Shown in pieces: positions 1,877-28,631 of a stretch of 64,000 bases of DNA (within the stretch, counting starts at the first letter, position 1; each line of letters opens with the position of its first letter). Origin of the DNA: Verrucomicrobiales bacterium (GTDB lineage Bacteria; Verrucomicrobiota; Verrucomicrobiia; Verrucomicrobiales; DEV007); the NCBI GenBank assembly GCA_029213195.1, contig JARGNI010000013.1, positions 1 to 64,000 on the forward strand, in the 5' to 3' direction. The position numbers and the translations under genes are program-made. Below the pieces are notes generated by a model that was not told the origin of the DNA, did no database searches, and saw only the letters and a list, made by a program, of their open reading frames with translations.

Positions 1877-2035
1877 TACTTTCAGCGCGCGATTCTACGA
1901 GATCACTCCATTGGGAACTCCTACCATCCGGGTCAGGGCAGTCCTTACAAAATCCTGACAGATTTTTTCTAATCATTCGCAGCCGTCTGTGTCATCCTCG
2001 TGAACAGTCACCATCCCCCTTTGCCTCACTTGATC

Positions 2036-8000: not shown

Positions 8001-8059
8001 GTCTCTATGCTCCTGAATTCAACAGCCACTCTCAGAGTTTCATTCTCAAGGCAGAATAG
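2036..8059 (+). CDS. Bacterial alpha-2-macroglobulin with thioester (MG2/A2M family)
   Basis: 2007 residues, longer than the about 1650 of E. coli YfaS-type proteins. It is expected to trap or inhibit foreign proteases in the periplasm. The chosen ATG at 2036 begins a standard signal peptide (MISRILPILPLFALFF..., cleavage near GAAAE); a GTG 36 bases upstream would add an unlikely polar N-terminus. There is no lipobox. Domain order: a helical repeat-like N-terminus, a carboxypeptidase-regulatory-like fold at about 496-560, MG2 around 575-670 (motif FTDRALYRPGQ), the A2M region from about 1245, and the thioester motif CSEQ with Cys1471, then the alpha-helical thioester domain and the receptor-binding-like end. 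No penicillin-binding protein 1C gene, its partner in many bacteria, is adjacent. Confidence 0.93.
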   Translation: MISRILPILPLFALFFLALGAAAESREEQWKEVAEAVEKGRPKTAVEILEPIIESARAEGAYAEAIKALAKKIAYEGQIEGGKAEENIQRLEEEIPQWPEASHPILETVLAHWYWNFFQQNRWRFLQRTQTSEAPGDDILTWALPRILAEIDSHFTKALSAPEALQAIPISEYSDLLNPGTAPKSFRPTLYDFIAHEALRFYTTGEQAGSAGRDDFQFTARGPALGSVDDFLAWEVKTTDTDAPEFKAIQLFQSLLSFHQADENRDAFIDADLARIVFAYNKAYGEDKKDRYEAALESFIENWSDHRISARARAHLATLVKEAGDLVRARKIAAQGFELFPDTPGGKLCGNIVEEIELEHVQVQVERVWNAPWPEIKLHYRNIDHVYFRMVRYDWEEFIKGNRRWGFENLETKQVVALMKKKPAAEWDSGLPATADFQIRTEKIPVPQDLKPGFYLVFASHDKNFSKPVDNVTSYARCWVSNLSLVTRVSSGDGKVGGFVLDAQSGEPIEGAQVRSWRLDREGKFSKVKPVKTNADGLFSIATGNQHNRGLALLAEHDGQRVSSVQNVANYLDKGKVDPFQRTFFFTDRALYRPGQTISYKGITVRVDQKNDDYSVQPQKNVVIVFRDPNGKEIARQTHQSNDYGSFHGSFTAPRDRVMGRMQIYSEGDSSGSTNFNVEEYKRPKFKVTLEAPEEAAQLDGEVELTGKATSYTGAAIDGASVTYRVVREVRYPFWWRWCYWWLPPNPGGSQEIASGKVETAVDGSFRITFTATPDRSVLKEDEPTFRYTIYADVTDTTGETRSDQKVINIGYTALKAALSASDWQEKGTPVEVSVSTTTLDGEAQAAEGTVKVYRLKEPEEVQRAALGGGHHPQPRFAFVNGQRQTIEPEPDLSNPDSWELGELASEKKFDTDATGSTQLKFDLDSGLYRAMLTTRDKFGNEVTARLPLQVLNPEGKNFRIKLPNVVAAPKWTMEPGETFQALWGTGYDSGRAYIEIEHRKKLLVAQWTDPDRTQSLLKQTVDEGMRGGFTLRVTQVKENRAYFTQRKVNVPWTNKELEVKWSHHTSKLEPGQKETWTATVSGPDAKNAVAEVAAALYDESLDAYLPHRWMSAFSVFRQDSSRLNSNFQNQVTGFQRFLGNWPRNYYATGVEYPSFPQDILAIHSHLARPGMLSMRSMRREGGVAMDALDSSGPMAATAAFADPIMPEGAAKAAANGDKAGAGGAPTAPKPDLDQVSARTNLQETAFFFPTLVSNKDGSVDLEFTMPEALTTWKFFAFAHDKDLRSGFLTDSVLTQKDIMVQPNPPRFLREGDELEFSVKVTNLSPTRQEGTVRLTLSDARTTDNVDAALGNVETDLNFEIPPKESRSYSWKLKVPDGQGFLIYKAVASTGKLSDGEEGYLPVLPRRIHVTESMPLPIRGAGEKQFDFTKLIQSAKSDSLDHESVTVQMVSNPSWYAVMALPYLMEYPHQCSEQIFNRLYANALARHIAESDPKIRRVFDQWRGTDALDSPLEKNEDLKAVALEETPWLRQGEKESQARKNVGILFEQNRINSELAKAAQQLAQQQLGDGAWPWFPGGRGNDYITLYITTGYGRLRHLGVDEVDVAPAVKSLTRLDGWIHKIYREIVKHGHKDKNNLSPTIALYLYGRSFFLEDRAIDKKHREAVDYFLAQAAEHWLSLGARQSQAHLAIALQRFGVHPEAPKDILISLEERSVSNEEMGKFWRDTELSYWWYRAPIETQAMMIEAFDEVAKDAEAVEDLKVWLLKQKQTRDWKTTKATADAVYALLLRGSDLLASDALVEVSLAGQVIEPKNVEAGTGFYEQKFFRGEVTPEMGKVSVTKTDEGVSWGSVHWQYFESMEKITPHEGTPLKLEKTLYTKVNSNDGPVLEPVKEGDKIEVGDELVVRLVLRTDRDMEYLHLKDQRGSGTEPVNVLSRYRYQDGLGYYESTRDTASHFFIDYLPKGTYVFEYSVRVQHRGEYQSGLATIQCLYAPEFNSHSQSFILKAE

Positions 8060-11887: not shown

Positions 11888-14800
11888 CTAGTGCTTGGTA
11901 ATGGTTTCACTGAGATTCAGGATCGCCCGAACGACCATCGTCGTGGCTGCGACATCTGGTCGGTCCAGTCCGTCGGGCGGTGGATAGGCTCCCACGGAGA
12001 GGAGGGCATCTGCCTCCTCCGGGTTTTGTTGAAAACGACGCCTCTCCGTTGCATAAAGATCGTCGAGAACTTTCATCTCCCGGTCCGAAGGTTCACGGGC
12101 AAGGATGGAAACAGCGGCCCGTCGAATCCGAAGATCGGGTGCCTCGATCGATCCGACCAACTCGGAAGCCAGCACCCGCGCAGCCTCGACAAACTGTGGA
12201 TCGTGGAGCAACACGAGCGCCTGCAGCGGTGTGTTCGTAGTCGAACGTGAAAAACTGCAAACCTCCCGGTTCGGTGCATCAAAAGTCGACATCATCGGAT
12301 GATGGGCCGCACGCTTCCAGAAGGTGTAGAGACCTCGCCGATAGAGACCCGCTCCACGGTCCGCTTCGTAGACCTGCTGAAATCCTTTTCGATTGGTCAA
12401 CTCCTTCCACAATCCCGGCGGCTGATACGGTTTCGCACTGGGTCCACCGATCGTCGGATCGATGAGGCCGGAAACCTGCAAGGCGAGATCTCGAATCATC
12501 TCCGCCGACATTCGCTTGCGAGGCCCCCGCGCGAGGAGACGATTTTCGGGATCCTGGTTCAGCATCTCCTCCGTCGTATCCGAGGACTGCCGGTAGGTCG
12601 AAGACATCACCATGAGCTTGACCATGTGCTTCAGGTCCCATCCCGACTCCATGAATTCCGAAGCCAGCCAATCGAGAAGCATGCGGTGAGAAGGCCACTC
12701 CGCCTGCGATCCGAAATCGTTGACCGTCTTCACGATCCCTACCCCGAAGACCTGGTGCCAGAGGCGGTTCATCGTGACCCGAGCGGTGAGCGGATGATTC
12801 CGCTCCGTCATCCACTGGGCCAACCCCAAACGATTCGCGGGAGATCCTTCGGGAAGAGGAGGAAGTCGCTCGGGGACCGCTGCAGAGACCTGCTCCATCG
12901 GTTGATCGTAGGCTCCCCTCTCGAGGATGAATGTGTCCCGAGGAGCCGCGTCGCTCATGATCATCGTCATGGGAATCTCAGACTCGAGAGCTTTCTTTTC
13001 GGCCTCGAAACGATTCATCGCCTGGGCGAGATCCCGGAATTCTGGAAGATGGGATCGAAAGGCGAGAAGCGCCTGCTCCTTCTCGGCCTTGTTTCGAGCT
13101 TCGGGCGCCTTGCTCAGGATCTTCGTCAGCTCGCCTCCCTTGACGGACCCAGCGGGATCCGGTGTCGACGAACGGGACAGCCTGACACGACCAAACGAGT
13201 GCCCTCCAAACTGGCTCTCGAAACGAAGTTTCAATCGAACCTCGCGGCTCGCCGATCCCGTGACCGGTTCGGCAAGCGAGACCGCAATCCAGTGATCTGC
13301 ATGATTGGTGTTCCCGTCGAAGGCCCACCCCGTGGACAGTTTCCCGTCGATGGCAGAGGCAGCAGAATACCCCTTCTGCTCGTAGTCTGCGGAAACCTTG
13401 GAAAGGGAAACCGGAGTCGCCTTGCCGTCCGAGTCCACCACCTGCGCTTCGATCTCGGAGAGCACGGCATTCCCATTCGAGGAACGTCCCGGGCCACCCT
13501 GCACCATGGACTCGTGGGTGAGCGCCTCGATACGGAGACCGGTGATGAAATCACTCTTCTGCAAAGGGATCACAAATTCATAGACCTCTTTTGCCGGAAC
13601 GGCTCCCGACGCGAGGTAGCTCCCGTCCTCCAGTCTTTTCATTTCACTTCCCGACGTGGCGGAAACGGAAGCGGGTGTCACCGGCTCCCAGGGGTTGCCG
13701 CGCTGCTTCTCCCATTCATTTTGCTTCCGGGTCAGCTCCGGGTCCTCTCGCAACAACTTTTCCCGCGTCTTCTCCAGGTCGACCTCCAATGAAGCCAATC
13801 GAGCCGATTGCTCCCTGGTCGGGGCCGGAATCGCAGGTGGACCAAAAAGGGGTTTACCCCCGACCTGGCCTTTCTCTGGGAGATGATTGAAGAAGGCAAA
13901 GAGCTGGTAAAAGTCCTTCTGGGAAATTGGGTCGAACTTGTGATCATGACAGCGGGCGCAATCCAGGGTGAGCCCCATGAAGACCGTCCCCATCGTCGTG
14001 ACTCGATCCGCGACGTAACTCACTCGGTATTCCTCCTGGATCACTCCCCCCTCGATCGTGAACGGGTGGTTTCGGTTGAAGCCAGTCGCAATCTTCTGCT
14101 CCAGGGTGGCCTCAGGAAGAAGATCGCCCGCAAGCTGCCAGGTGATGAATTCGTCGTAGGGCTGGTTGGCATTGAAACTGTCGATGACCCAGTCTCTCCA
14201 TCGCCACATCGTGCGAAACCAGTCATACTGATATCCTGAGGTGTCGGCATACCTGGCCGCGTCCATCCATTCCACCGCCATTCGTTCCCCATAACGAGGC
14301 GATTCGAGCAAACGATCCACCACTTTTTCATAGGCTTCGGGCGACTCATCGCGGACAAAGGCGTCCACCTCTTCCGGTGTCGGAGGCAGGCCCGTGAGAT
14401 CGAAACTGACTCTGCGGATCAGGGTCCGGCGATTTGTCTCCGGTGATGCTGAGAGGTCCTTCTCATTATGCTTCCTGGCCACAAAGCGATCGATGGGATT
14501 GGTCGCCCAGTCACTTCCCTGCTCCGGAACCGCTGGGCGCTCGACTGGAACAAAAGTCCACAATTCGCTGTAATCGGCCCCCTGCTCGATCCAGCGACGG
14601 ATCAGATCGATTTCTTCATCAGTGAACGCGGGCAGCTTCGACTCCGACGGAGGCATCGCATCGATTTCATCATCGGTTGTGATTCGATAAAAAAGCTCAC
14701 TCTTCTCGGGATCTCCGGCGACGAGAGAGAACATTTTCCCTTCCTCATCGAGAGCCGCAAAAGCGCCCTCCGGAGTGTCGAGTCGCAGATCCGCCTCCCG

Positions 14801-14947
14801 AGTGTTGGCATCCGGCCCATGGCAGTGAAAGCAACGATCGGAGAGCAAGGGACGAATATCGCGACTGAAATCGATCAAATCTTCTGTATGGCCGAGGGAA
14901 ACCGCGAAAAAGCCAAATACGGTCGTTATCCAGAAGTCTTTCTTCAT
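11888..14947 (-). CDS. PSCyt1-DUF1549-DUF1553 planctomycete-type cytochrome protein
   Basis: 1019 residues. The second of two adjacent ATGs (14947) is preferred because GGGAG lies 3 bases upstream of it. Signal peptide MKKDFWITTVFGFFAVSLG. The PSCyt1 domain contains the single heme motif CFHCH (Cys39, Cys42, His43) in DIRPLLSDRCFHCHGPDA. DUF1549 follows (about 130-340, with AVEWMDAARYADTSGYQYD). A middle sandwich domain (about 420-600) and DUF1553 (about 690-950, with NRLWHQVFGVGIV and NTPLQALVLLHDP) complete it. The family is thought to be a periplasmic electron-transfer scaffold working with its DUF1501 partner; the overlap-like 7-base spacing supports co-translation. The 178 bases upstream form a divergent promoter region. 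Confidence 0.93.
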   Translation of the reverse strand: MKKDFWITTVFGFFAVSLGHTEDLIDFSRDIRPLLSDRCFHCHGPDANTREADLRLDTPEGAFAALDEEGKMFSLVAGDPEKSELFYRITTDDEIDAMPPSESKLPAFTDEEIDLIRRWIEQGADYSELWTFVPVERPAVPEQGSDWATNPIDRFVARKHNEKDLSASPETNRRTLIRRVSFDLTGLPPTPEEVDAFVRDESPEAYEKVVDRLLESPRYGERMAVEWMDAARYADTSGYQYDWFRTMWRWRDWVIDSFNANQPYDEFITWQLAGDLLPEATLEQKIATGFNRNHPFTIEGGVIQEEYRVSYVADRVTTMGTVFMGLTLDCARCHDHKFDPISQKDFYQLFAFFNHLPEKGQVGGKPLFGPPAIPAPTREQSARLASLEVDLEKTREKLLREDPELTRKQNEWEKQRGNPWEPVTPASVSATSGSEMKRLEDGSYLASGAVPAKEVYEFVIPLQKSDFITGLRIEALTHESMVQGGPGRSSNGNAVLSEIEAQVVDSDGKATPVSLSKVSADYEQKGYSAASAIDGKLSTGWAFDGNTNHADHWIAVSLAEPVTGSASREVRLKLRFESQFGGHSFGRVRLSRSSTPDPAGSVKGGELTKILSKAPEARNKAEKEQALLAFRSHLPEFRDLAQAMNRFEAEKKALESEIPMTMIMSDAAPRDTFILERGAYDQPMEQVSAAVPERLPPLPEGSPANRLGLAQWMTERNHPLTARVTMNRLWHQVFGVGIVKTVNDFGSQAEWPSHRMLLDWLASEFMESGWDLKHMVKLMVMSSTYRQSSDTTEEMLNQDPENRLLARGPRKRMSAEMIRDLALQVSGLIDPTIGGPSAKPYQPPGLWKELTNRKGFQQVYEADRGAGLYRRGLYTFWKRAAHHPMMSTFDAPNREVCSFSRSTTNTPLQALVLLHDPQFVEAARVLASELVGSIEAPDLRIRRAAVSILAREPSDREMKVLDDLYATERRRFQQNPEEADALLSVGAYPPPDGLDRPDVAATTMVVRAILNLSETITKH

Positions 14948-15073
14948 CATCTCCCGAAATCTACCGATGAAACACCGCATTCACCAACCCTCGATGAATG
15001 CGTGTTTACGGCAAAAAGAAGGAACTTTTGTGCGTAAGAGGCTTTTCCGAACGGGGATGTGACACTCCTTCAT

Positions 15074-15873: not shown

Positions 15874-17013
15874 ATGAGCAATACGATCGAAAAACCCCGC
15901 GTCGCCATCATCGGACTTGGCTTTGGAGCTGAGTTCATTCCTATCTACCAGCGCCACCCCAACGCCGAAATTACGGCCGTTTGTCAGCGAAATCCCGAGA
16001 TGCTGAAGGAGATTGCCGACAAGTTTGGAGTGGAGAAGCGTTTCACCGACTACGACGAGTTGCTGAAAGATCCCGAGATCGATGCTGTCCATATCAACAC
16101 ACCGATCCCTGATCACGCCGAGCACACCCTGAAAGCGCTCCGTGCCGGCAAGCATGTCGCCTGCACCGTCCCCATGGCGACTTCGGAAGAGGACTGCAAG
16201 GCCATCGTCGATCTTTGCGCGGAAACCGGACTTCGCTACATGATGATGGAGACCGTCGTCTACGCTCGAGAATTTCTCTACATGAAGGAACTCTACGACA
16301 CCGGCGAACTCGGAAAACTGCAGTTCCTGAAAGCAAGTCACCAGCAGGACATGGACGGATGGCCCGGATATTGGCCCGGTCTTCCTCCCATGCACTACGC
16401 GACTCACTGTGTCGGTCCCGTCCTCGGTCTCGCCCGAAACGAGGCCGAGTACGTCAGTTGCTTTCCCAGCGGCACAATCCGCGAGGAAATGCATGACTGC
16501 TACGGATCCCCCTTTGCTGTCGAAACCACCCACATCAAGTTCGCCAACAGCGATCTCAGTGCCCAGGTCTATCGCTCACTCTTCGATGTCGCCCGACAGT
16601 ATCGCGAGAGTTTTGAAGTCTATGGCTCCAAAAAGGGCGTCGAGTGGCCACTGATCGAAGGCGAGCCGCTTGTCGTTCACACTGCAAAGAAACCCGAACC
16701 GGAAATTCCCGAGAAGAAGGAGTGCCCCGACTACGCGATGCTGCTGCCCGATGAAATCGCCCCCTTTACAACCGGCGGAGTCTACGGCGGCGAAGAAGGC
16801 GAGGACCACCTCAGCTTCACTCAGGGTGCCGGTCATGGAGGATCGCATCCTCATCTCGTCCACCAGTTCGTCGAACTGCTCCGCGGGACAGGCGAAGGCT
16901 ACCCCAACGAAATCCAGTCCGCTAACATCACCCTGACAGGAATCCTTTCTCACGAAAGCGCTCTCGAAGGCGGCGCGATCAAGAGACTTCCCGAGTGGAG
17001 CCTGTCTTCTTAG
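15874..17013 (+). CDS. Gfo/Idh/MocA family protein, TVP variant
   Basis: 379 residues. N-terminal Rossmann fold with AIIGLGFGAEFIP at 11-23, then the NTPIPDHAEH and ALRAGKHV segments and a C-terminal alpha/beta domain. In classic members the EKP motif supplies a catalytic lysine; here the aligned residues are T98-V99-P100 (CTVPMATSEED), so the lysine is missing. That subtype occurs in PVC bacteria and may not perform ordinary hydride transfer (inference). It has no signal peptide, so it is cytoplasmic. It probably acts on a sugar or sugar derivative released by the neighbouring sulfatase/redox proteins; the exact substrate is unknown. A 33-base hairpin repeat follows its stop codon. Confidence 0.9.
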   Translation: MSNTIEKPRVAIIGLGFGAEFIPIYQRHPNAEITAVCQRNPEMLKEIADKFGVEKRFTDYDELLKDPEIDAVHINTPIPDHAEHTLKALRAGKHVACTVPMATSEEDCKAIVDLCAETGLRYMMMETVVYAREFLYMKELYDTGELGKLQFLKASHQQDMDGWPGYWPGLPPMHYATHCVGPVLGLARNEAEYVSCFPSGTIREEMHDCYGSPFAVETTHIKFANSDLSAQVYRSLFDVARQYRESFEVYGSKKGVEWPLIEGEPLVVHTAKKPEPEIPEKKECPDYAMLLPDEIAPFTTGGVYGGEEGEDHLSFTQGAGHGGSHPHLVHQFVELLRGTGEGYPNEIQSANITLTGILSHESALEGGAIKRLPEWSLSS

Positions 17014-17110: not shown

Positions 17111-20100
17111 ATGAAGAAGATCCCCCAGAACCTTGCTTTCCTTTTCGTCGCGATTCAGTTGTGCTCCTGCGCTATCCTGTTCGGCGAAGACAAACCCAAC
17201 ATTCTATTCATCGCGATCGATGATCTGAACGACTACATCTCGCCGCTCGACAATCATCCGGGGATTCAGACCCCGAACTTCGAGCGTCTTGCGAAGCGGT
17301 CCGTGACCCTGGCAAACGCCCACTGTGCCGCTCCCGCCTGCCATCCCTCTCGGGTCGCGGTGATGACGGGAGTGCATCCCACAACGTCCGGCATCTACCG
17401 CAACGCCTTTCGTGCGCACGGCCCGCGGTGGCGGGATGAGTCCCCGGTTCTCAAGGACGCCGTTGTCCTGTCTCAACATTTTCGCGATCACGGCTACCGT
17501 GCCGTCGGAGGCGGAAAGATCTTCCACACGCTGCAGTGGACTCCAGAAGACTCGCAAAACGACCCGGACGCGTGGGACGACTATCGCGGCGACCCACTCG
17601 ATCCGATTTCAGCCGACTGGCCACGCCCAGAACTTCCGGCAACTCAGGAACCCGGGCGCCCCCTCAGCAAGCACCATTTCGGTGCCGCTCCGCTCGACCC
17701 CGGGCATCGATACGGCGACGAACTCGTGACCGACTGGGCCATCGAGCAGATGAAAGGTGCCGGAGACGAACCTCTCTTTCTCGCCGTCGGACTTTTCCGC
17801 CCCCACATTCCCTTCGAGGTGCCGCAAAAATGGTTCGATCTCTACCCCGAGGATTCAGTCCAACTGCCGCCCTATCGAGCCGACGACCTCGACGACGCTC
17901 ACGAACACGAGCGTGTCTCCTGGCACCAATGGGTCACCGAGAACGACGAATGGAAGTCTCTCATGCGCGGCTATCTCGCCAGCATCAGCTACGTCGACAA
18001 CGAACTGGGACGTCTCCTCGATGCACTTGATGCCTCGCCAATGGCAGGAAACACCATCGTCGTTCTCTGGACCGATCACGGCTTTCATATCGGGGAAAAA
18101 GACAACTGGGAGAAGTTTGCGCTGTGGGACCAGACCACTCGCGTCCCCTGTTTCATTCATGCACCCAGTGTGAGCGCAGACGGAAAGAAAACGCGCACCC
18201 CCGTCAGCCTGGTTGATCTCTACCCGACTCTCTGTGAACTCGCGGGATTGCCGGTGCCGGGACAGTGCGATGGATCTTCCCTCGTTCCCATCCTCAAGAA
18301 TCCCGAAGCCACTCCCGAACGCTACGCGATTTCCTCCTACCAGTTCCGAGGCGAGAATACCGCCTCCCATGCAGTCATCGATGAGCGATATCGTCTCATC
18401 CGAAACGGCGATGGCTTCGAAGAACTCTACGATCTCGTCGAAGACCCGAACGAATTCACCAACCGGATCGATGACCCCGAGCTCGATGAGGTAAGAAAAC
18501 GACTCACCTCGCATCTTCCTGATTCCCCTGCCGATCAGGTCGGTCCGGCCCGGGACTCTCCCTATAACCTAAAAGCCGCTTCAATCGGCAAAAGCCAGCC
18601 TATCGCAGACACCCCGTTTCGAGTGAGTTTTCAGGCCTCCGGATACCGGAACCATCCCGAGGGCGTCCTCGTCGCTAATGGAGGCGGCGTCAATGGATAC
18701 GCGGTTTACATCAAAGACCAGCGACTTCACTTCGCGGTGCGCAGGGGCGGGAAACTTCATCTCGCCAGCTCCGAATCCTCTCCTCCGAAACGTCCGTTCT
18801 CCGTGTCTGCCGAACTGGCAAAGGATGGAACCATGAGCCTTTCGATCGACAACGAGGAAGTCGCCAGTGCGAGCGCGAAAGGATTGATCAAGGCGAACCC
18901 CAACGAAGGATTTGTCATCGGTTCCGATCCGGAATCACAGGTCGGCGACTACGGGAATGCCTTTCCTTTTGGCGGGAAGGTCGAGAATTTCAACCTTGAT
19001 CGTGGCGAAAAGATCGGACAAGAACCAACGGCTGCCGCTGACAACGACATGGGACCAATCCGCGTCCTCTTTCTCGGCCACGAGGGCGGTGGCCCGGGAC
19101 AGGCCTCGCATCAGCCGGGCAAGATGTATCCCCACCTTGCCGAGGCGCTCGGAGGAGACGCGATCTACTTCGACTATGTCGAGACGCCGGAAGAGGCCTT
19201 CGGAGATCGCGAGAAATTGTTCCGATACGATGCCGTCCTCATCTACGCAAACCACCGGACGCTCGATCGCAAGCTCTGGAACAACCTGAAAGACTTCGTG
19301 GAGCAGGGTGGCGGCTTCGTCCCGATCCACTGCGCGAGCTGGTGCTTTCAAAACATTCTCGAATACGACCGACTCGTCGGAGGCCGATTCAAGAGTCATG
19401 GAACGGGTGTCTTCTCGCCGAAGACCATTGCTCCCGAGCATCCCGCCATTGCAGAGGTTCCTCAGCTCGAAGCCTGGGACGAAACCTACTATCACAACAA
19501 CCACAATGAAACCGATCGCGTCGTCCTCCAGGTACGTGAAGGACCGGACGGAGATCCGAATCCCGGCCCCGAGCCTTGGACCTGGGTGCGCTCGCAGGGT
19601 AAAGGTCGCGTTTTCTACACCGCGAGTGGCCATGACGAACGAGTCTGGTCGAAGCCTGAGTTTCATGCCCTGCTGAAATCCGGCATCCTCTGGAGCATCG
19701 GTAAGGAACGCCGCGCCGCACACGATCAATTTCTCAGCCAACGCACCCCGCTTCGCTACGAACCAAGGGACAACATTGCCAACTATGAAAAACGGCCGAA
19801 GCCGCTCGAGTATCAGTTCCCCCTCTCCCCCGAAGACAGCCTCGACTACCTCCGCGCTCCGGTGGGATGGTCGGTCGAGCTCTTCGCTGCCGAGCCCCTG
19901 ATCGTGAATCCGATTTTCCTCGCCTGGGACGAACGGGGCCGTCTCTGGGTCGCCGAGACCGTGGACTACCCGAACGAAGTGCGTCCCGAGGGCGGCAACG
20001 ACACCATCAAGATCCTCGAGGACACCGATAACGACGGGCGGGCCGACAAGGTCACGGTGTTCGCCGACGGCTTGAACATCCCCACTTCCCTCACCTTCTG

Positions 20101-22285
20101 GGACGGAGGCATCATCGTCGCGCAGGCGCCGGACTTCCTTTTCCTCAAGGACACCAACGGAGATGACCGGGCCGACGTTCGCGAGACGGTCATGACAGGC
20201 TGGGGCACGAAAGACACCCACGCAGGCCCTTCCAACCTGCGCTACGGCATCGACAACTGGGTCTACGGAACGGTTGGCTACTCGGGTTTCAATGGCGAGA
20301 TTGGAGGAAAGAAACTCCAGTTCGGCTCCGGGGTCTTCCGCTTTCGCCCCGGCGGATCGGAAATGGAGTTTCTCCACCAGTTCAACAACAACACCTGGGG
20401 ACTCGGGCTCAACGCAGCCGGAGACGTCTTCGGATCGACCGCGAATCGAAATCCTGCCTTCTTCGGTGGCTTTCCCCAAACTGGATATCCCGAAGGGGAA
20501 AGCGGAACCAGTGCGCGGATGATCGCGGACGAGATCGCCTTTCATCCCATCACCCCGAACATCCGGCAAGTCGACGCCTTCGGGCAGTATACCGCCGGGG
20601 CAGGTTACGCCCTCGCCACCTCGAAACAGTTTCCGCCAGCTTGGCGAGATCGGATCGCCTTCATCGGGGGACCGACAGGGCATCTCCTCGGGATGTTCGA
20701 GAACGTCCGCGACGGAGCCGGCTACCGCGCCATCAACCGATTCCACTTCCTCGCCAGCGCCGACGAGTGGTTCTCTCCGGTCGCAGCCGAGGTGGGACCT
20801 GACGGCCATCTTTGGATCGCGGACTGGTACAATTTCATCATCCAGCACAACCCCACTCCCACTCCGGAACGCGGTGGCTATGCAGCTGTGCGGGGGCCTG
20901 GCAATGCCCACGAGAACCCTCTCCGCGATACCCAGCATGGACGAATCTATCGGGCGATGTGGGAGGAAGCCGAAGTGACCTCGATTTCTTCTCTCGAGAA
21001 TGCTCCGGACCAGAAACTGCTCGCGGCACTCTCTCATGACAACCAATTCTGGCGGCTCACCGCCCAGCGCATTCTCGTGGCTGGAAAACGTACCGGTGTC
21101 GTGCCCGAGCTGAAAACCCGCATTGCCGAAACAAACGGCGCCGTTGCCGCTCACGCCTTCTGGACCCTCCACGGGCTCGGTGCTCTCGATCGCGACACTC
21201 ACCAACTTGCGCTGCTCAAACCAGGCGACCCGATCCTGAAACGAAACGCGATCCGTGCGATCCCCGCCACCGATGAAGGGATGCAGCTGTTTTTCGACAC
21301 CGCCGTGATCCAGGATGAGGACTCCCTCGTTCGCCTCACCGCTTTCTCGAAACTGGCCCACTTCCCCGATCGTAGCCGGGTCGAGCAGGTCGCGAAGCAG
21401 CTGATCCGTGAAGAGGAGAACCACTCCGACGAGTGGCTATCCATCGCGCTTCGCGCGAGCGGTGCCGGAAAAGTGACGCGGGGTCCCGCGAAGATCACTG
21501 GGCCCAATCTGCTTCCCAATCCCTCCTTCGAAGAAGTGATCGACGGGCTTCCCGCACACTGGACCGTCCGCACCTACAGCGGCGAGGCCGAGCATACCTC
21601 TGCCACCGCCCAGCCCCGCACCGGGGAACGCAGCCTGCGAATTTCCTCAACCAAAGGCGCCGATAGCTCGCTCTTCGCGAAGGTCCCGGTAAAGCCAAAC
21701 ACCGACTACCGCATCACAGGTTGGGTCAAGACGGCCGGTCTGCTCGGCGCTCGGGGCGCGCAGATGAATGCGCACGAGGTGCAGCAACAGCCGCGAGGCT
21801 CACGCACCAATGCCTTTCAGCGAGCCACCCGGGATTGGAGCAAGGTGGAGGTCATTTTCAATTCCCTCGATCGCACCGAGCTCACCATCAACTGCCTCTT
21901 TGGAGGCTGGGGAAAGTCGACCGGCACCGCCTGGTGGGACGATGTCGCCCTCCACGAGGTCGAGTATGAAACCGTGGTCGAGGACGAACCGGAACTGACC
22001 AAGGGAGACGCGGGACGCGGGAAAAAACTTTTCGAGACACACCCCATCGCCGCGTGCAACCGCTGTCATGTCGTCGGTGGCGAAGGTGGGCCGATCGGCC
22101 CCGCCCTCGATGGCATCGCGAGTCGCAAGAGCGAAGAGTATCTTCTCGAGAGCCTGACCGATCCCCAGGCATCCATGGCCGAAGGCTTTCCCGCCGAAGT
22201 CTCTCCGATGCCACCTATGGGCGTGCTCCTGACCGAGCAGGAGATGCGCGATGTCATGGCCTACTTACTGACGCTGCGTGAATGA
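17111..22285 (+). CDS. Sulfatase-ThuA-PVC dehydrogenase-CBM-cytochrome c fusion protein
   Basis: 1724 residues in one uninterrupted frame, exported (signal MKKIPQNLAFLFVAIQLCSCA; the LCSC could be a weak lipobox). Approximate order: an iduronate-2-sulfatase-like domain (28-467) with the formylglycine motif CHPSR (Cys77) and metal-binding DD; a LamG/sandwich-like region (485-640); a ThuA-like domain (648-861); a PVC-type membrane-bound dehydrogenase propeller (902-1290); HEAT-like helices (1310-1460); a CBM4/9-like sandwich starting NLLPNPSFEE (about 1466-1620); and a cytochrome c domain with CNRCH (Cys1649, Cys1652, His1653). Each part is common in PVC genomes, but I know of no protein joining all of them. 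It implies desulfation coupled in cis to substrate oxidation and heme electron transfer (inference). The sulfatase maturation enzyme is not nearby. Confidence 0.9.
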   Translation: MKKIPQNLAFLFVAIQLCSCAILFGEDKPNILFIAIDDLNDYISPLDNHPGIQTPNFERLAKRSVTLANAHCAAPACHPSRVAVMTGVHPTTSGIYRNAFRAHGPRWRDESPVLKDAVVLSQHFRDHGYRAVGGGKIFHTLQWTPEDSQNDPDAWDDYRGDPLDPISADWPRPELPATQEPGRPLSKHHFGAAPLDPGHRYGDELVTDWAIEQMKGAGDEPLFLAVGLFRPHIPFEVPQKWFDLYPEDSVQLPPYRADDLDDAHEHERVSWHQWVTENDEWKSLMRGYLASISYVDNELGRLLDALDASPMAGNTIVVLWTDHGFHIGEKDNWEKFALWDQTTRVPCFIHAPSVSADGKKTRTPVSLVDLYPTLCELAGLPVPGQCDGSSLVPILKNPEATPERYAISSYQFRGENTASHAVIDERYRLIRNGDGFEELYDLVEDPNEFTNRIDDPELDEVRKRLTSHLPDSPADQVGPARDSPYNLKAASIGKSQPIADTPFRVSFQASGYRNHPEGVLVANGGGVNGYAVYIKDQRLHFAVRRGGKLHLASSESSPPKRPFSVSAELAKDGTMSLSIDNEEVASASAKGLIKANPNEGFVIGSDPESQVGDYGNAFPFGGKVENFNLDRGEKIGQEPTAAADNDMGPIRVLFLGHEGGGPGQASHQPGKMYPHLAEALGGDAIYFDYVETPEEAFGDREKLFRYDAVLIYANHRTLDRKLWNNLKDFVEQGGGFVPIHCASWCFQNILEYDRLVGGRFKSHGTGVFSPKTIAPEHPAIAEVPQLEAWDETYYHNNHNETDRVVLQVREGPDGDPNPGPEPWTWVRSQGKGRVFYTASGHDERVWSKPEFHALLKSGILWSIGKERRAAHDQFLSQRTPLRYEPRDNIANYEKRPKPLEYQFPLSPEDSLDYLRAPVGWSVELFAAEPLIVNPIFLAWDERGRLWVAETVDYPNEVRPEGGNDTIKILEDTDNDGRADKVTVFADGLNIPTSLTFWDGGIIVAQAPDFLFLKDTNGDDRADVRETVMTGWGTKDTHAGPSNLRYGIDNWVYGTVGYSGFNGEIGGKKLQFGSGVFRFRPGGSEMEFLHQFNNNTWGLGLNAAGDVFGSTANRNPAFFGGFPQTGYPEGESGTSARMIADEIAFHPITPNIRQVDAFGQYTAGAGYALATSKQFPPAWRDRIAFIGGPTGHLLGMFENVRDGAGYRAINRFHFLASADEWFSPVAAEVGPDGHLWIADWYNFIIQHNPTPTPERGGYAAVRGPGNAHENPLRDTQHGRIYRAMWEEAEVTSISSLENAPDQKLLAALSHDNQFWRLTAQRILVAGKRTGVVPELKTRIAETNGAVAAHAFWTLHGLGALDRDTHQLALLKPGDPILKRNAIRAIPATDEGMQLFFDTAVIQDEDSLVRLTAFSKLAHFPDRSRVEQVAKQLIREEENHSDEWLSIALRASGAGKVTRGPAKITGPNLLPNPSFEEVIDGLPAHWTVRTYSGEAEHTSATAQPRTGERSLRISSTKGADSSLFAKVPVKPNTDYRITGWVKTAGLLGARGAQMNAHEVQQQPRGSRTNAFQRATRDWSKVEVIFNSLDRTELTINCLFGGWGKSTGTAWWDDVALHEVEYETVVEDEPELTKGDAGRGKKLFETHPIAACNRCHVVGGEGGPIGPALDGIASRKSEEYLLESLTDPQASMAEGFPAEVSPMPPMGVLLTEQEMRDVMAYLLTLRE

Positions 22286-22428
22286 CGAAATACCCAGGGA
22301 CCCAGATACCCAACTTTTAAATCTTCAACCTCCCGAACCATCATGAAACCAAGAAACAGCCCCCGCCTTTTCGGATTCCGTATTTCGATCTTCCTTGGGT
22401 ATTTGAGTATTTCGTCCTTCGTCATTCC
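22280..22428. repeat. GACGAA-type intergenic repeat in two inverted copies, overlapping the next gene's signal peptide
   Basis: GAATGACGAA (22280-22289) has its reverse complement at 22418-22427, and AAATACCCA (22288-22296) has its reverse complement within 22395-22404. Read on the minus strand, 22381-22428 is a run of short degenerate GACGAA/GAAATAC units of the kind often seen between genes of Verrucomicrobiota and Planctomycetes. The left copy contains the stop codon of the fusion gene; the right copy lies inside the coding sequence of the next gene and encodes its hydrophobic signal segment. Confidence 0.55.
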
Positions 22429-25400
22429 CGCCTTGGCGGAAACCGCCTGGAACACCCAACTCATTCTTCCTGACTTCTACGCTGAGGGCGCCGGAGTCGG
22501 AGACATCAATGGAGACGGCAACCCCGACATCGCCTACGGCCCCTTCTGGTTTGCCGGTCCCGATTTCCAAACGAAAACCCGCTTCGCCGACGGAGAAGCC
22601 TTCGACGGCGGCACCGGATACTCGGACAGTTTTTTCAGCTTTGTCAGGGACTTCAATGGGGATGGAAAGAGTGATATTCTCGTCTTTGGTTTTCCCGGCA
22701 AATCGGCCCGCCTCTACCTGAACTCCAATGCGGAGCGCTGGGAAATGATCGAAGTCGCCGAACAGGTCGCCAACGAATCGCCTCACCTCATCGATCTCAT
22801 CCCCGGAGGACATCCCGAGATCGTCTGCGCTCGAGAGAAAGCCTACGGCTACTACGAAGCGAGTGAGGACGCGACGAAGCCATGGACATGGCACTCGATC
22901 TCCCCCACCGGGGAAGCCGCCACTCCGTTCGGACACAGTCTTGGTGTCGGTGACATCAATGGGGACGGGCGGGCCGATGTCATCGAGAAGATGCATTGGT
23001 ATGAGCAGCCTGAAAAAGCAGGCACTGGAGAATGGAAGAAGCACAAGTGGGCAATGATTCCCTACGGCGGAGGCGGTGCCCAGATCCTCATCGACGATGT
23101 CGATGGAGATGGCGACAACGACATCATCACTTCGCTCAATGCACATGCCTACGGCATCGCCTGGTTCGAGCAACACGCCCCCGGAAAGTTCGGGCGCCAA
23201 GACATCGTCGGTCAGAGCTCAACTGAGAATCCCTACGGAGTCGCGTTCTCTCAACCCCATGCCCTCGCTCTCGCTGACATGGACGGAGACGGCCGCAAGG
23301 ACTTCGTCACTGGGAAACGTTACTTTGCCCACAAAGGCCGCGATCCCGGCGGCTTACAGGAGCCAGTGCTCTACTGGTTTCGCAACACCGAGACGGAAAA
23401 CGGAATCGACTGGGTCCCCCATCTCGTCGACGACGATTCCGGGGTCGGCGTAGAAGTAAAGGTGACGGATCTCAATGGAGACGAGAAACCTGATGTAATT
23501 ACCAGCAGCAAGAAAGGGCTTATCATCCACACCCAGGTCGCGAGTGGTTCTCACTCGGCCGTCCCAAAGTGGAAACACGGTGAACATCTTCCGCAGGATC
23601 AGTATGGGGTCGACCTTACCGCCGAGGAGGCGAGGGATGAGACCATGGTACCGGAAGGCTTCTCGGTAGACCTTATCACGGCGGAGCCCGACCTGGTCCA
23701 GCCCATCGCGATGACCTTCGACGCTCGCGGTCGCATCTGGGTGATCGAGGGCAACACTTATCCAGTCCGCAAGGAAGGCGGCTTCCACGACGGCAAGGAT
23801 CGCATTCTCATCTTCGAAGACAGTGATGCGGACGGATCCTTCGAAACTCGAAAAGTCTTCGCTGAGAATATCAATCTCGCCAGCGGCATCGAAATTGGAT
23901 TCGGAGGCGTCTATGTCGGCGCCGCCCCTTACCTTCTCTTCTATCCTGACAAAGACCAAAATGACCAACCCGACGGTGAGCCTGAGATCCTACTCGACGG
24001 GTGGGGCTACCAGGACACTCACGAGACTCTGAACGCCTTCACCTGGGGACCGGACGGGTGGCTCTATGGTTGCCACGGCGTTTTCACCCACTCAAAAGTG
24101 GGCAAGCCGGGCACACCTGACGAGGTGCGTCAGCCGATCAATGCGGGTCTGTGGCGTTTTCACCCGGTCTCAAAGGAGTTCCAAGTCTACGCCCATGGTT
24201 CGAGCAATCCATGGGGTGTCGACTTCAATGAACACGGGGACTTTTTCGTCAGTGCGTGCGTCATCCCGCACTTCTATCACCTCAGTCACGGAGGCCGTTA
24301 TCAACGACAGGCTGGCCAGCACTTCGACCCGTTCACGTTCGACGACATCAAGACGATCGCCGACCACGCCCACTACACCGGAGCCTGGCAGGAAGTTCGA
24401 AAAAACGGTTATCGGGCTCCCGAGGACACTTCCGCTCTTGGCGGCGGACACGCCCACTGCGGCCTGGTCTACTACGACGCCCCGGAGTTTCCGAAAGAGT
24501 TTCGTCGGCAGATGTATTTTCACAACCTGCACGGACATCGCATCGTCCGGGAGGATCTCGGTCATGATGGCTCTGGCTACCTCGCGCGACATCGGCCCGA
24601 CTTCCTCCTCAGCAATCACCACGATACCGTGGGTGTGGGAGTGATGCAGGGGCCGGACGGAGCCCTCTATTATTCCGACTGGGTCGACAGCCAGACCTGC
24701 CACCATCGCGATGTTGAGATCTGGGATCGCAGCAATGGCCGAATTTTTCGGGTCCGCTACGGCGATGCCAAGAGCACGGCTCTCGATCTACCCGACCTTG
24801 GCGACACCAAACTTGTCGCATTGCTTGGTCACGAAAACACTTTCCAGGCACGCCAGGCTCAACGGCTTCTCCAGGAGCGTGCTGCGACGGGATCCCTCGA
24901 CAGAGATGCCGTCAGCGCGGCCCTGACTCAATTTGAATCGGATCACTCTGAAGTCGCCCCTCTCCGTCTCCGGGCCCTCTGGACCCGCCATGTCACCGGG
25001 ATATTGAATGGCAAGCAGGTCATGGCCGCTCTCTCCGACCCGAATGAACACATCCGTGGCTGGGCTATTCAGATTGCAATCGCGAACGAAGGCACGATGC
25101 CAAGATTCATCGAGATGGCGAGGTCCGAAGAGTCGCTCGTGGTCCGACGCTACCTCGCATCAAAGCTTCAGACCCTGCCACTCCCACAACGATTGGAGAT
25201 TGCCCGTGGCCTCATCGGGCACAATCGCAGTCAGTGGGATCGCAATATCCCTTACCTCGTTTGGTATGGAATAGCCCCTCTCGTGGAATCGAACCCGAAA
25301 GAGGCTCTGACCCTCATCAACCAGACGGCATGGCCGATGCTCAAGGATTTCATCAATCGGCGGGCCGCGGTTTTCCCAGAAGGCCGAACTGCCGTCACCT

Positions 25401-27013
25401 TCTCACTATCCAATGCTGGCAATCCGAAACAGTTTGTCGACCAAGCGAACCAACTACTGACCGCACTGGCCAGCCTGCCTCCGGTAGAGACACCCGAAAC
25501 CTGGGAAAATGCGAAAGCCAAAGGAATCTCGTTTGGTAAAAACCCGCAAGTGGCGGATGTCCTCAGCCGTCTCGGAACTCGCTTCCGCGATGCGGAATAC
25601 TTTCCGAAATGGCGCAAGATCGCTCGGAATGGAAACGCAAAGGCGTCCGACCGGGTCAATGCAATGGAGTTGCTTACGATCGGACGCGATCCTGAACTTG
25701 GAGTGATCGCCCGCGAGCTGCTCTCCGTTCCTTCCCTCCAAACCGCCGCAATCACCGCGCTACGCCGGGATCCGGGAACAGAAACGGCGAAAGCACTGGT
25801 AGCGGTCCTCCCGGAGCTTTCCCTCAAACAGCGAAATGAAGCGATCAACCTCCTCGGGACGAGGCCGGAAATGGCTCTGGTTCTGCTGGAAGCAGTAGAT
25901 ACCAAGAACGTGGCTTCGTCTCTCGTCTCCCCCGTCATGCTCGATCAGTTCGAGCGATTCGAAGACGAAAAAATCTCTGCGCTGATCGAGAAAAACTGGA
26001 TGCGCGGCGGTGCAGGCATCGACCTCGAACAGCTTCATGCCGCCATCCAAGGCTGGAAGAAGAAGCTCACTCCGAAGGTGCTTTCGCAGGCTGATGTGTC
26101 GAGAGGACGGCAGGCCTACATGATGACCTGCGGCACCTGCCACCAGCTCTTCGGCGAAGGCATCGCCATGGGCCCCGACCTCACAGGATCGAACCGTGCC
26201 GACCTCGGCTACCTTCTCGAGAATGTCCTCGCCCCCAACGCCGTCGTTTCGAAGGAATACCTGCTCAACATCTTCACGATGAAAGACGGATCGACCTTGA
26301 GTGGCATGATCAGCAACGAGACGCCCGAATTCGTTTCTCTTTCCATGCCCGGAGGCACCACCACGGATGTAAAGAAAACCGAGATAAAAAGCCGGCAGGA
26401 ATTGACCCAGAGCCTTATGCCCGCCGGTCTCTTTGACGCGCTTCCGATCGAGCAGGTTGCTGATCTCGTGAAATACCTCGCCAGCCCGAGGCAGGTCCCG
26501 ATGCCCGGTGAAAAAAAACCGGTTCAGAAGGTGAGGGCAGTAGCTCCTTCCGAGAGCGTCATCCGCATCGAGGCCGAGTCGCTCGTAGAAAAATTTTCAC
26601 CGCCCAGGGGAGAACTCCGACCGCAGAAGATGTCCGGCTTCGGCAGCGGCTGGTCCGGTGACTCCCATCTCTGGTGGACCGGAGGAAAACCCGGAGACAT
26701 TCTCACGCTGAAACTGGAAGGGATTGATCCAGGAAACTATGATCTCACTCTGTTCCCGACGACGGCAAAGGACTACGCCACGGTGAAATTCGCGATCAAT
26801 GGCCAACTGCGGGAGGCGGATTTCTACACGGCCGATGTTCTGCCTGGTGATCCAATTCCATTCGAAAGCGTCAATGTCAGTCCCAGCGAACCGCTCCAAA
26901 TCGATATCCATATCACCGGAGCAAATCCGAAAGCGCAGAAACGCTACATGATCGGGATCGATCGGATCGAGCTAAAGAAAATTGAAAAAGCACCCAAGTC
27001 CGCTGGAAAGTAA
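22343..27013 (+). CDS. FG-GAP/VCBS-PVC dehydrogenase-HEAT-cytochrome c-CBM fusion protein
   Basis: 1556 residues, exported (signal FGFRISIFLGYLSISSFVIPALAE, itself derived from a repeat). Order: FG-GAP/VCBS repeats with calcium-binding DxDxDG loops such as GDINGDGNPD and DVDGDGDND (about 45-410); a PVC-type dehydrogenase propeller starting VPEGFSVDLITAEPDL (about 433-800); HEAT-like helices (815-1230); a cytochrome c domain with CGTCH (Cys1263, Cys1266, His1267) in the Haem_bd-PVC arrangement ending MPAGLFDALPIEQVADLVKY; and a C-terminal carbohydrate-binding-like sandwich (about 1395-1545). Probably a periplasmic or surface sugar-oxidising enzyme passing electrons to its own heme. It is 57 bases after the sulfatase fusion and 28 bases before another sulfatase, so likely one transcript. 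Confidence 0.9.
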   Translation: MKPRNSPRLFGFRISIFLGYLSISSFVIPALAETAWNTQLILPDFYAEGAGVGDINGDGNPDIAYGPFWFAGPDFQTKTRFADGEAFDGGTGYSDSFFSFVRDFNGDGKSDILVFGFPGKSARLYLNSNAERWEMIEVAEQVANESPHLIDLIPGGHPEIVCAREKAYGYYEASEDATKPWTWHSISPTGEAATPFGHSLGVGDINGDGRADVIEKMHWYEQPEKAGTGEWKKHKWAMIPYGGGGAQILIDDVDGDGDNDIITSLNAHAYGIAWFEQHAPGKFGRQDIVGQSSTENPYGVAFSQPHALALADMDGDGRKDFVTGKRYFAHKGRDPGGLQEPVLYWFRNTETENGIDWVPHLVDDDSGVGVEVKVTDLNGDEKPDVITSSKKGLIIHTQVASGSHSAVPKWKHGEHLPQDQYGVDLTAEEARDETMVPEGFSVDLITAEPDLVQPIAMTFDARGRIWVIEGNTYPVRKEGGFHDGKDRILIFEDSDADGSFETRKVFAENINLASGIEIGFGGVYVGAAPYLLFYPDKDQNDQPDGEPEILLDGWGYQDTHETLNAFTWGPDGWLYGCHGVFTHSKVGKPGTPDEVRQPINAGLWRFHPVSKEFQVYAHGSSNPWGVDFNEHGDFFVSACVIPHFYHLSHGGRYQRQAGQHFDPFTFDDIKTIADHAHYTGAWQEVRKNGYRAPEDTSALGGGHAHCGLVYYDAPEFPKEFRRQMYFHNLHGHRIVREDLGHDGSGYLARHRPDFLLSNHHDTVGVGVMQGPDGALYYSDWVDSQTCHHRDVEIWDRSNGRIFRVRYGDAKSTALDLPDLGDTKLVALLGHENTFQARQAQRLLQERAATGSLDRDAVSAALTQFESDHSEVAPLRLRALWTRHVTGILNGKQVMAALSDPNEHIRGWAIQIAIANEGTMPRFIEMARSEESLVVRRYLASKLQTLPLPQRLEIARGLIGHNRSQWDRNIPYLVWYGIAPLVESNPKEALTLINQTAWPMLKDFINRRAAVFPEGRTAVTFSLSNAGNPKQFVDQANQLLTALASLPPVETPETWENAKAKGISFGKNPQVADVLSRLGTRFRDAEYFPKWRKIARNGNAKASDRVNAMELLTIGRDPELGVIARELLSVPSLQTAAITALRRDPGTETAKALVAVLPELSLKQRNEAINLLGTRPEMALVLLEAVDTKNVASSLVSPVMLDQFERFEDEKISALIEKNWMRGGAGIDLEQLHAAIQGWKKKLTPKVLSQADVSRGRQAYMMTCGTCHQLFGEGIAMGPDLTGSNRADLGYLLENVLAPNAVVSKEYLLNIFTMKDGSTLSGMISNETPEFVSLSMPGGTTTDVKKTEIKSRQELTQSLMPAGLFDALPIEQVADLVKYLASPRQVPMPGEKKPVQKVRAVAPSESVIRIEAESLVEKFSPPRGELRPQKMSGFGSGWSGDSHLWWTGGKPGDILTLKLEGIDPGNYDLTLFPTTAKDYATVKFAINGQLREADFYTADVLPGDPIPFESVNVSPSEPLQIDIHITGANPKAQKRYMIGIDRIELKKIEKAPKSAGK

Positions 27014-27041
27014 ATTTCACCTCCCCCGGCTCACCAAGCCC

Positions 27042-28631
27042 ATGCCGAACCGACTCCGCAATTTCCTCCTCCTTCTTTGCCTCGTCGTTTTCCCGGTCGA
27101 GTCCAACTCTGCTGAGCAGGCGCGACCCAACATCATCTTCTTCCTCGTCGATGACCTCGGGCAGCGTGACATCGGATGCTACGGCAGCACGTTTCACGAA
27201 ACCCCGTCCATCGATCAGCTGGCAAAGGAGGGCATGCGTTTCACCAATGCCTATTCGACCTGCCATGTCTGCTCGCCGAGCCGCGCCAGTATTCTCACGG
27301 GCAAATACCCGGCTCGGACCAACTTGACGGAGTGGCTTGCTGGACGTCCGGAGCGGGATTACGAGCCGCTGCATCACGCGGAAAAACTGACCGCCTTGCC
27401 GGACGAAGAGATCACCCTGGCCGAAATCCTGAAGAGCCATGGCTACGCAACCGCAAACTACGGCAAGGCTCATGTCAGGAGGGACCCGACGACCTATGGC
27501 TTCGATGAGGAGATCACGGGTTGGGTACGGTCCTATCACTATCCTTTCGGTGGTGATTACAACAAGAAGCTTCCGGCCAAAAAGGGCGACTACTACACCG
27601 ACAAGCTGACCGACGCGGCCCTGGATTTCATCGAGCGGAACCAGGACCAGCCCTTCTTTGTCCATCTCGAACACTTCGCGGTGCACGACCCGATCCAGGG
27701 ACGTCCAGACCTCGTGGAGAAATATCGCAAGAAGCTCGCGGCGATGCCGGAGCAGAAGGGGCCGGACTTCATTCTCGAACCCAACCCGGATGGACCGCCA
27801 CTCACGGAGGAGGAACTCAAGGCGCTGGCGGAGAACGACGATCCGCAGGCGCATCAGGACGCCAGGGTCTGGTGGGTGAAGCAGAAACAGGACAATGCGG
27901 AGTTTGCCGGCATGCTGGAGGCGACCGATGAAAGCCTGGCGCGCATCCGCGCGAAGCTGAAGGAACTTGGACTGGAAGAGAACACGCTCATCATCTTCAC
28001 GGCGGACAACGGCGGCATGTCGGCGTCGAACCAGTATCGCGGAATCCATCACTCACGCGAGATGCTCGATGCCCGTTTTGCTTCCTCCAATCTTCCGCTG
28101 CGTGGAGCGAAAGGCTGGAACTACGAAGGCGGCATTCGTGTTCCGCTAATTGTCCACTGGCCTGGCCAAACTGAACCGAACTCGATCTCCGAGGCAATCG
28201 TCACAGGAACCGATTTTTACCCGACGCTTCTCGAGATGGCGAATCTACCGGCGGTGCCGGAACAACACGTCGACGGCAAGAGCTTTGTCCCCGCGCTGAA
28301 GGGCGAAGACTACGAACGCGGGCCGGTCTACTGGCACTTTCCTCACTACAGCAATCACGGCTACCAGAGCCCCGGCGGAGCGATTCGCTCGGGCGACTTC
28401 AAGCTGTTGGAATACTACGAGAATGGCACGGTGCAACTCTTCGACCTGGCCAACGATATTGGGGAGCACAATAACCTCGCCGAAGAGCGCCCCGAGATCG
28501 TTGCCAGGCTGAAGAAGCAATTCGAGGACTGGCGCGACGAAGTCGATGCCAAGATGCCGTATCCCAAGACAGCGACCTCGAAGCCAGCTCCCGGCGCGCG
28601 CGTTGTCACGCCACGTGTTAAAAGCAGATAA
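27042..28631 (+). CDS. Secreted sulfatase (type I, formylglycine)
   Basis: 529 residues from ATG 27042. An upstream ATG at 26982 would overlap the previous gene and spoil the signal peptide (MPNRLRNFLLLLCLVVFPVESNSAE). The sulfatase signature is present: metal ligands VDDLG (Asp37, Asp38), formylglycine motif CSPSR (Cys77), GKAHV, a TADNGG ligand loop near residue 320, and RVPLIVHWPG. It removes sulfate esters from a carbohydrate in the periplasm or outside the cell; the exact S1 subfamily and substrate cannot be read by eye. It probably closes the operon with the two giant redox fusions. The short gap after it (28632-28763) contains a GGGCT/AGCCC mini-hairpin but no clear terminator. Confidence 0.93.
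   Translation: MPNRLRNFLLLLCLVVFPVESNSAEQARPNIIFFLVDDLGQRDIGCYGSTFHETPSIDQLAKEGMRFTNAYSTCHVCSPSRASILTGKYPARTNLTEWLAGRPERDYEPLHHAEKLTALPDEEITLAEILKSHGYATANYGKAHVRRDPTTYGFDEEITGWVRSYHYPFGGDYNKKLPAKKGDYYTDKLTDAALDFIERNQDQPFFVHLEHFAVHDPIQGRPDLVEKYRKKLAAMPEQKGPDFILEPNPDGPPLTEEELKALAENDDPQAHQDARVWWVKQKQDNAEFAGMLEATDESLARIRAKLKELGLEENTLIIFTADNGGMSASNQYRGIHHSREMLDARFASSNLPLRGAKGWNYEGGIRVPLIVHWPGQTEPNSISEAIVTGTDFYPTLLEMANLPAVPEQHVDGKSFVPALKGEDYERGPVYWHFPHYSNHGYQSPGGAIRSGDFKLLEYYENGTVQLFDLANDIGEHNNLAEERPEIVARLKKQFEDWRDEVDAKMPYPKTATSKPAPGARVVTPRVKSR

Follow-up and report, generated by a model that had tools for sequence, protein, structure and literature searches.

Sulfatase fusions are already documented: in Kiritimatiellales, S1_7 sulfatases are joined to glycoside hydrolases of GH10 or GH32, and such fusions had previously been described from Polaribacter and Planctomycetes (PMC6388578). 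In freshwater Verrucomicrobia, sulfatases lie beside Planctomycete-type cytochromes with CBMs (PMC5615132), and a DUF1080 protein is the proposed periplasmic 3'-ketolactose hydrolase in Caulobacter (PMC9007349). In Verrucomicrobiota, sulfatases number in the hundreds and heme-linked 'PVC dehydrogenases' in the dozens, and fusions offer natural clues to their substrates. The window analysed here, a stretch of 64,000 nucleotides of contig JARGNI010000013.1 from a Verrucomicrobiales bacterium whose genome is called G000 below, contains at 17111..22285 (forward strand, as for all window features unless stated otherwise) a gene that starts with ATG and is stop-free over 1724 codons. The encoded protein of 1724 aa has the order sulfatase, LamG, ThuA, DUF7133, HEAT, CBM and cytochrome c, and the gene is a true fusion between two modules that are each known already, a rare combination seen in one genus. 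Our best explanation, to which we give a probability of about one half, is that a genuine fusion of S1 sulfatase-LamG to ThuA-DUF7133-HEAT-CBM-cytochrome c would desulfate and then oxidise one glycan. Residues 1 to ~25 (17111..17185), with their lysines and hydrophobic core, resemble an N-terminal signal peptide and coincide with a helix at residues 4-23 of the predicted structure; the protein is probably exported. The earlier note had described a single exported protein with sulfatase, ThuA, propeller, sandwich and heme motif, a description with which the frame and the Pfam and TIGR02604 matches agree; the Pfam search recovered the parts that it named, but the LamG-like sandwich and the HEAT repeats had been overlooked.

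The N-terminal half is an S1 sulfatase with an SGSH_C C-terminal part (residues 29-470, 17195..18520), as indicated by Pfam matches to Sulfatase at residues 29-379 (133 bits) and to SGSH_C at 328-470. Its nearest solved structure by sequence is 6hhm, the best PDB sequence match at 158 bits, which Foldseek also retrieves at 26% identity. The formylglycine motif, previously placed at Cys77, is indeed found there within C77-H-P-S-R81 (17339..17353), with C77, S80 and R81 invariant across 18 aligned sequences, and the S1 sulfatase set of catalytic and Ca/sulfate-binding residues is present (D37, D38, C77, R81, K136, H139, H232, D322, H323, K335). The genome encodes an FGE homolog, the FGE-sulfatase family giving 14 matches in G000, with 298 bits at C102. 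Between the sulfatase and ThuA lies a LamG/concanavalin-like sandwich (residues ~500-632, 18608..19006), which gives a weak Laminin_G_3 Pfam match, is modelled as beta strands and is 40-43% identical to the G012, G009 and G018 sulfatases. The linker that joins the sulfatase-LamG part to the mature ThuA part (residues 633-648, 19007..19054) retains no internal signal peptide when compared with the N-termini of the stand-alone proteins.

Residues ~641-1724 correspond to a conserved stand-alone protein of ~1100 aa that has its own signal peptide and occurs across the family, the order and the phylum. Proteins of ~1100 aa that are 46-81% identical to the window module are found in 80 named loci, including Chthoniobacter flavus Ellin428; nearly all of these loci are titled Verrucomicrobiota, one Deltaproteobacteria and one just 'bacterium', and a sulfatase is fused in a single one, from UBA1506. 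The idea that the parts are usually separate genes has to be given up, since the phylum-wide conservation of the stand-alone form makes four of the five parts first noted (ThuA, dehydrogenase, CBM and cytochrome c) one standard protein of Verrucomicrobiota. The rare element of the window protein is the N-terminal sulfatase only, the remaining module being ordinary. The module scores 238.1 bits against TIGR02604 'PVC-type heme-binding CxxCH protein' (curated cut-off 122.2), and the structure model of residues 641-1724 has a pLDDT of 82. It begins with a ThuA-like domain (residues 649-880, 19055..19750), matched by PF06283 at 676-861 with 112.6 bits (gathering cut-off 33.4) and in fold by 4jqs (Z 22.2). 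After the propeller come HEAT repeats (residues ~1300-1450, 21008..21460), seen as a weak Pfam HEAT_2 match and as helical repeats in the model, and a CBM4_9/16/22-like CBM (residues 1464-1618, 21500..21964), for which the CBM_4_9 match at 1466-1544 reaches 25.3 bits, slightly below the Pfam cut-off of 25.9, and Foldseek finds 4d0q, CBM16 and CBM22. The C-terminus is a class I cytochrome c (residues 1632-1723, 22004..22279; Cytochrom_C at 1636-1722, 49.4 bits). Its heme c motif C1649-N-R-C-H1653 (22055..22069) is the CNRCH announced near the C-terminus; both of its Cys, its His and the candidate axial ligands Met1700 and Met1703 are invariant across 23 aligned sequences.

The DUF7133/Piru_Ver_Nterm propeller (residues 906-1282, 19826..20956; Pfam 377 bits) adopts a six-bladed fold whose top match is the PQQ-dependent sugar dehydrogenase 3a9g (Z 26.1, 288 residues, rmsd 3.2), followed by AA12 enzymes. 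Its D1035-T-H1037 motif (20213..20221) is invariant in 9 aligned DUF7133 domains, distant paralogs included, and H1037 aligns by motif with the catalytic His of sugar dehydrogenases. The motif comparison makes His1037 and Asn1094 candidate counterparts of the His and Asn in the active site of these enzymes, in which the neighbouring Arg and Asn contact PQQ. A protein of G000, C62, scores over the cut-off for both DUF7133 and GSDH and forms a sequence bridge between the two families, through which their motifs can be matched. It could be argued that DUF7133 is instead a lactonase-like or binding propeller and that the cytochrome c takes its electrons from another partner: DFPase and lactonase propellers also reach Z 22, the Arg beside the active-site Asn (R-N-P in the GSDH proteins of G000) is Asn1093 in the window propeller, a search of the PDB by sequence alone matched the propeller to no solved sugar dehydrogenase, and PQQ synthesis genes were not recognised in G000, where no PqqE scored above the cut-off and PqqC gave no match, in searches without a positive control. 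We nevertheless consider such a propeller unlikely, given that sugar dehydrogenases head the fold matches, that the active-site His and Asn appear, by motif, to be retained, that the bridge protein matches GSDH and that the multi-domain DUF7133 proteins read all include a redox domain (cytochrome c, or cupredoxin in C108). To our knowledge, no experimental activity is known for any DUF7133 protein.

The partners of DUF7133 elsewhere in the genome are informative as to its chemistry. Of 34 DUF7133 ORFs in G000, six are in frame with ThuA (chance 2e-9), four with a 3-keto-disaccharide hydrolase (chance 1.5e-4) and three with a sulfatase, the last being not above chance (P 0.19), under the assumption of 5000 genes and about 220 sulfatases. 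Glycoside oxidation, probably at C3, is our best guess for DUF7133 because it is fused with 3-keto-disaccharide hydrolase and ThuA, and DUF1080 is linked to 3-ketoglycoside hydrolysis; the fact that a single genome joins DUF7133 to 3-keto-disaccharide hydrolase, to ThuA and to sulfatases suggests that its task is to oxidise sulfated or desulfated glycosides. Two further DUF7133-sulfatase fusions have domain orders unlike that of the window gene. C86 (G000:C86:42904-50682; L036:4905-12683) encodes 2593 aa with 3-keto-disaccharide hydrolase, DUF7133, HEAT, cytochrome c and two successive sulfatases, and C108 (G000:C108:25629-31124; L037:5630-11125, minus strand) encodes 1832 aa with sulfatase, FG-GAP, DUF7133, HEAT and cytochrome c. 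A separate frame at L037:801-5585 (minus strand) combines ThuA, GDSL lipase, DUF7133 and cupredoxin, a copper domain replacing the cytochrome.

The N-terminal sulfatase is fused in three of the examined genomes, representing three species of one genus: G000, G002 (Akkermansiaceae UBA1506) and G008. In the latter two, sulfatase and ThuA-to-cytochrome module share one frame of ~1580 residues, with a short in-frame linker and without the LamG part present in G000. The sulfatase fusion is unusual, as first suspected, and the search for proteins of the same full order gave a divided answer: the join recurs in G002 and G008, but without LamG, and the four-part module alone is common. The other relatives read encode the two halves separately, in some cases side by side; a wider search of 388 genomes of the phylum yielded no additional fusion at the stringency used, and a published sulfatase-dehydrogenase-cytochrome fusion was not found in open-access literature text. 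A sulfatase gene lies directly upstream of the module in G058 (12 nt apart), G290, G254, L119, L144 and L149. The apparent fusions of G290 and G254 (frames of 1642 and 1657) were rejected, since in the DNA a stop codon separates two neighbouring genes, as was a 3238-aa frame in G052, the length of which is inflated by a run of N. In the window, a Gfo/Idh/MocA oxidoreductase gene (15874..17013) directly precedes the fused gene, as it does in G002, G008 and the unfused G021, and this family is a recurrent neighbour of the module. Downstream lies a gene for a 1556-aa protein with FG-GAP, DUF7133 and cytochrome c (22343..27013), a relative of which is also downstream in G021, and a sulfatase gene (26982..28631) overlaps the end of that frame. 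Elsewhere in the window are a bacterial alpha-2-macroglobulin of 2019 aa (2000-8059) and a PSCyt1-PSCyt2-PSD1 protein adjoining the sulfatase cluster (11888-14980, minus strand).

An assembly or sequencing error, in the form of a missed stop or a chimera, might have merged two genes, since the window contig comes from a MAG and G021, the closest relative of the ThuA-dehydrogenase part, has no sulfatase. We consider this highly improbable: two more MAGs carry the same join with in-frame linkers, GC3 is even along the gene and unchanged across the junction, and the fused gene has the same neighbours as the unfused gene of G021, Gfo/Idh upstream and DUF7133 downstream. Between G002 and G008, dN/dS is low on both sides of the join (sulfatase half ~0.12, remainder ~0.10) and there is no frameshift, so that purifying selection acts on both halves and disfavours a missed stop; the break that the earlier note had suggested looking for around residues 470-650 finds no support, and a missed stop or chimera was set aside on the recurrent in-frame joins and the low dN/dS. 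In the same pair (L030, L031), the two parts differ in dS (sulfatase half 0.14, remainder 0.36), which may mean that one half has recombined. Where G002 uses an ATG start, G008 has ATA (L031), so the G008 copy may begin at another codon or not be expressed.

A real fusion may still be near-neutral. Co-transcribed neighbours would have merged by losing a stop codon and an internal signal peptide, and the halves would act independently, with only co-export and stoichiometry changed. The separate adjacent genes described above (with 12 nt between them in G058) are consistent with such an origin, as is the linker, with LamG in G000 and without it in G002 and G008. In-frame merging of glycan enzymes is frequent in G000: one frame of 2991 aa (L041:1065-10037) combines GH2, TraB, a GH5-like part, two sulfatases and GH43, another of 2064 aa (L040:1243-7434) holds a sulfatase amid glycosidase-like parts, and sulfatases are often fused with glycosidases, with other DUF7133 proteins and with each other as double sulfatases. 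Since the sulfatase-DUF7133 pairing is not enriched in G000, the join may be without functional meaning. The history also allows for it: in the sulfatase tree, G000 and G002/G008 are grouped (88/80) beside G012 and G009, in which sulfatase-LamG is a gene of its own, whereas in the ThuA-dehydrogenase tree the unfused G021 pairs with G000 inside a group that also holds G002/G008, and one fusion followed by sulfatase loss in G021 or two fusions would fit these trees equally. However, purifying selection maintains the fused gene in G002 and G008, and sulfatases are recurrent neighbours of the module; we therefore hold a near-neutral fusion to be a serious contender, with a probability somewhat short of even.

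Under the preferred reading, desulfation followed by oxidation of one glycan, Cys77 of the exported protein would be converted to formylglycine, and the sulfatase would take a sulfate ester off a CBM-bound oligosaccharide. The propeller would then oxidise a ring hydroxyl of the same glycan, most likely at C3, to a keto group, its electrons passing to the C-terminal heme and on to the respiratory chain, and the keto-sugar would be processed by ThuA and neighbouring enzymes. The intact frame, the domains, the conserved catalytic residues and heme motif, the recurrence of the join and the sugar-dehydrogenase fold are observed; export, the oxidation chemistry and its C3 position, the cofactor, the order of the steps and any benefit of the join are inferred from them. 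A coupling of desulfation and subsequent oxidation in cis, as the earlier note had proposed, would be plausible. The more specific proposal, in which one exported protein strips sulfate from a glycan and, in cis, oxidises the hydroxyl thereby uncovered, its own heme serving as electron exit, on a route to keto-sugars that C86 and C108 would have reached separately, seems unlikely to us. The fused gene is in any case a single-gene construct for testing glycoside oxidation by DUF7133.

In comparison with known systems, residues 641-1724 are an ordinary member of the PVC-type heme-binding CxxCH proteins (TIGR02604/DUF7133, with ThuA, CBM and cytochrome c), but the sulfatase-LamG part sits where the stand-alone proteins have their signal peptide. 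The sulfatase has its catalytic residues and fold in common with the S1_7 ulvan sulfatase 6hhm of Formosa agariphila, and differs from such S1_7 sulfatases in being fused to an oxidoreductase-type module. With the soluble PQQ sugar dehydrogenases and AA12 enzymes, the propeller shares the fold and, judging by motif, probably the active-site His and Asn, whereas the Arg and a sequence-level match are absent. The Caulobacter LacABC and DUF1080 route (PMC9007349) likewise ties periplasmic glycoside oxidation to 3-keto hydrolysis, as is proposed here, although through another dehydrogenase family, and the window protein has ThuA in place of DUF1080. Finally, the sulfatase-glycoside hydrolase fusions (PMC6388578; 6hr5 'alpha-L-rhamnosidase/sulfatase') similarly combine a sulfatase with a second glycan-acting enzyme, but in the window protein this partner is a putative dehydrogenase with a heme and not a glycosidase.
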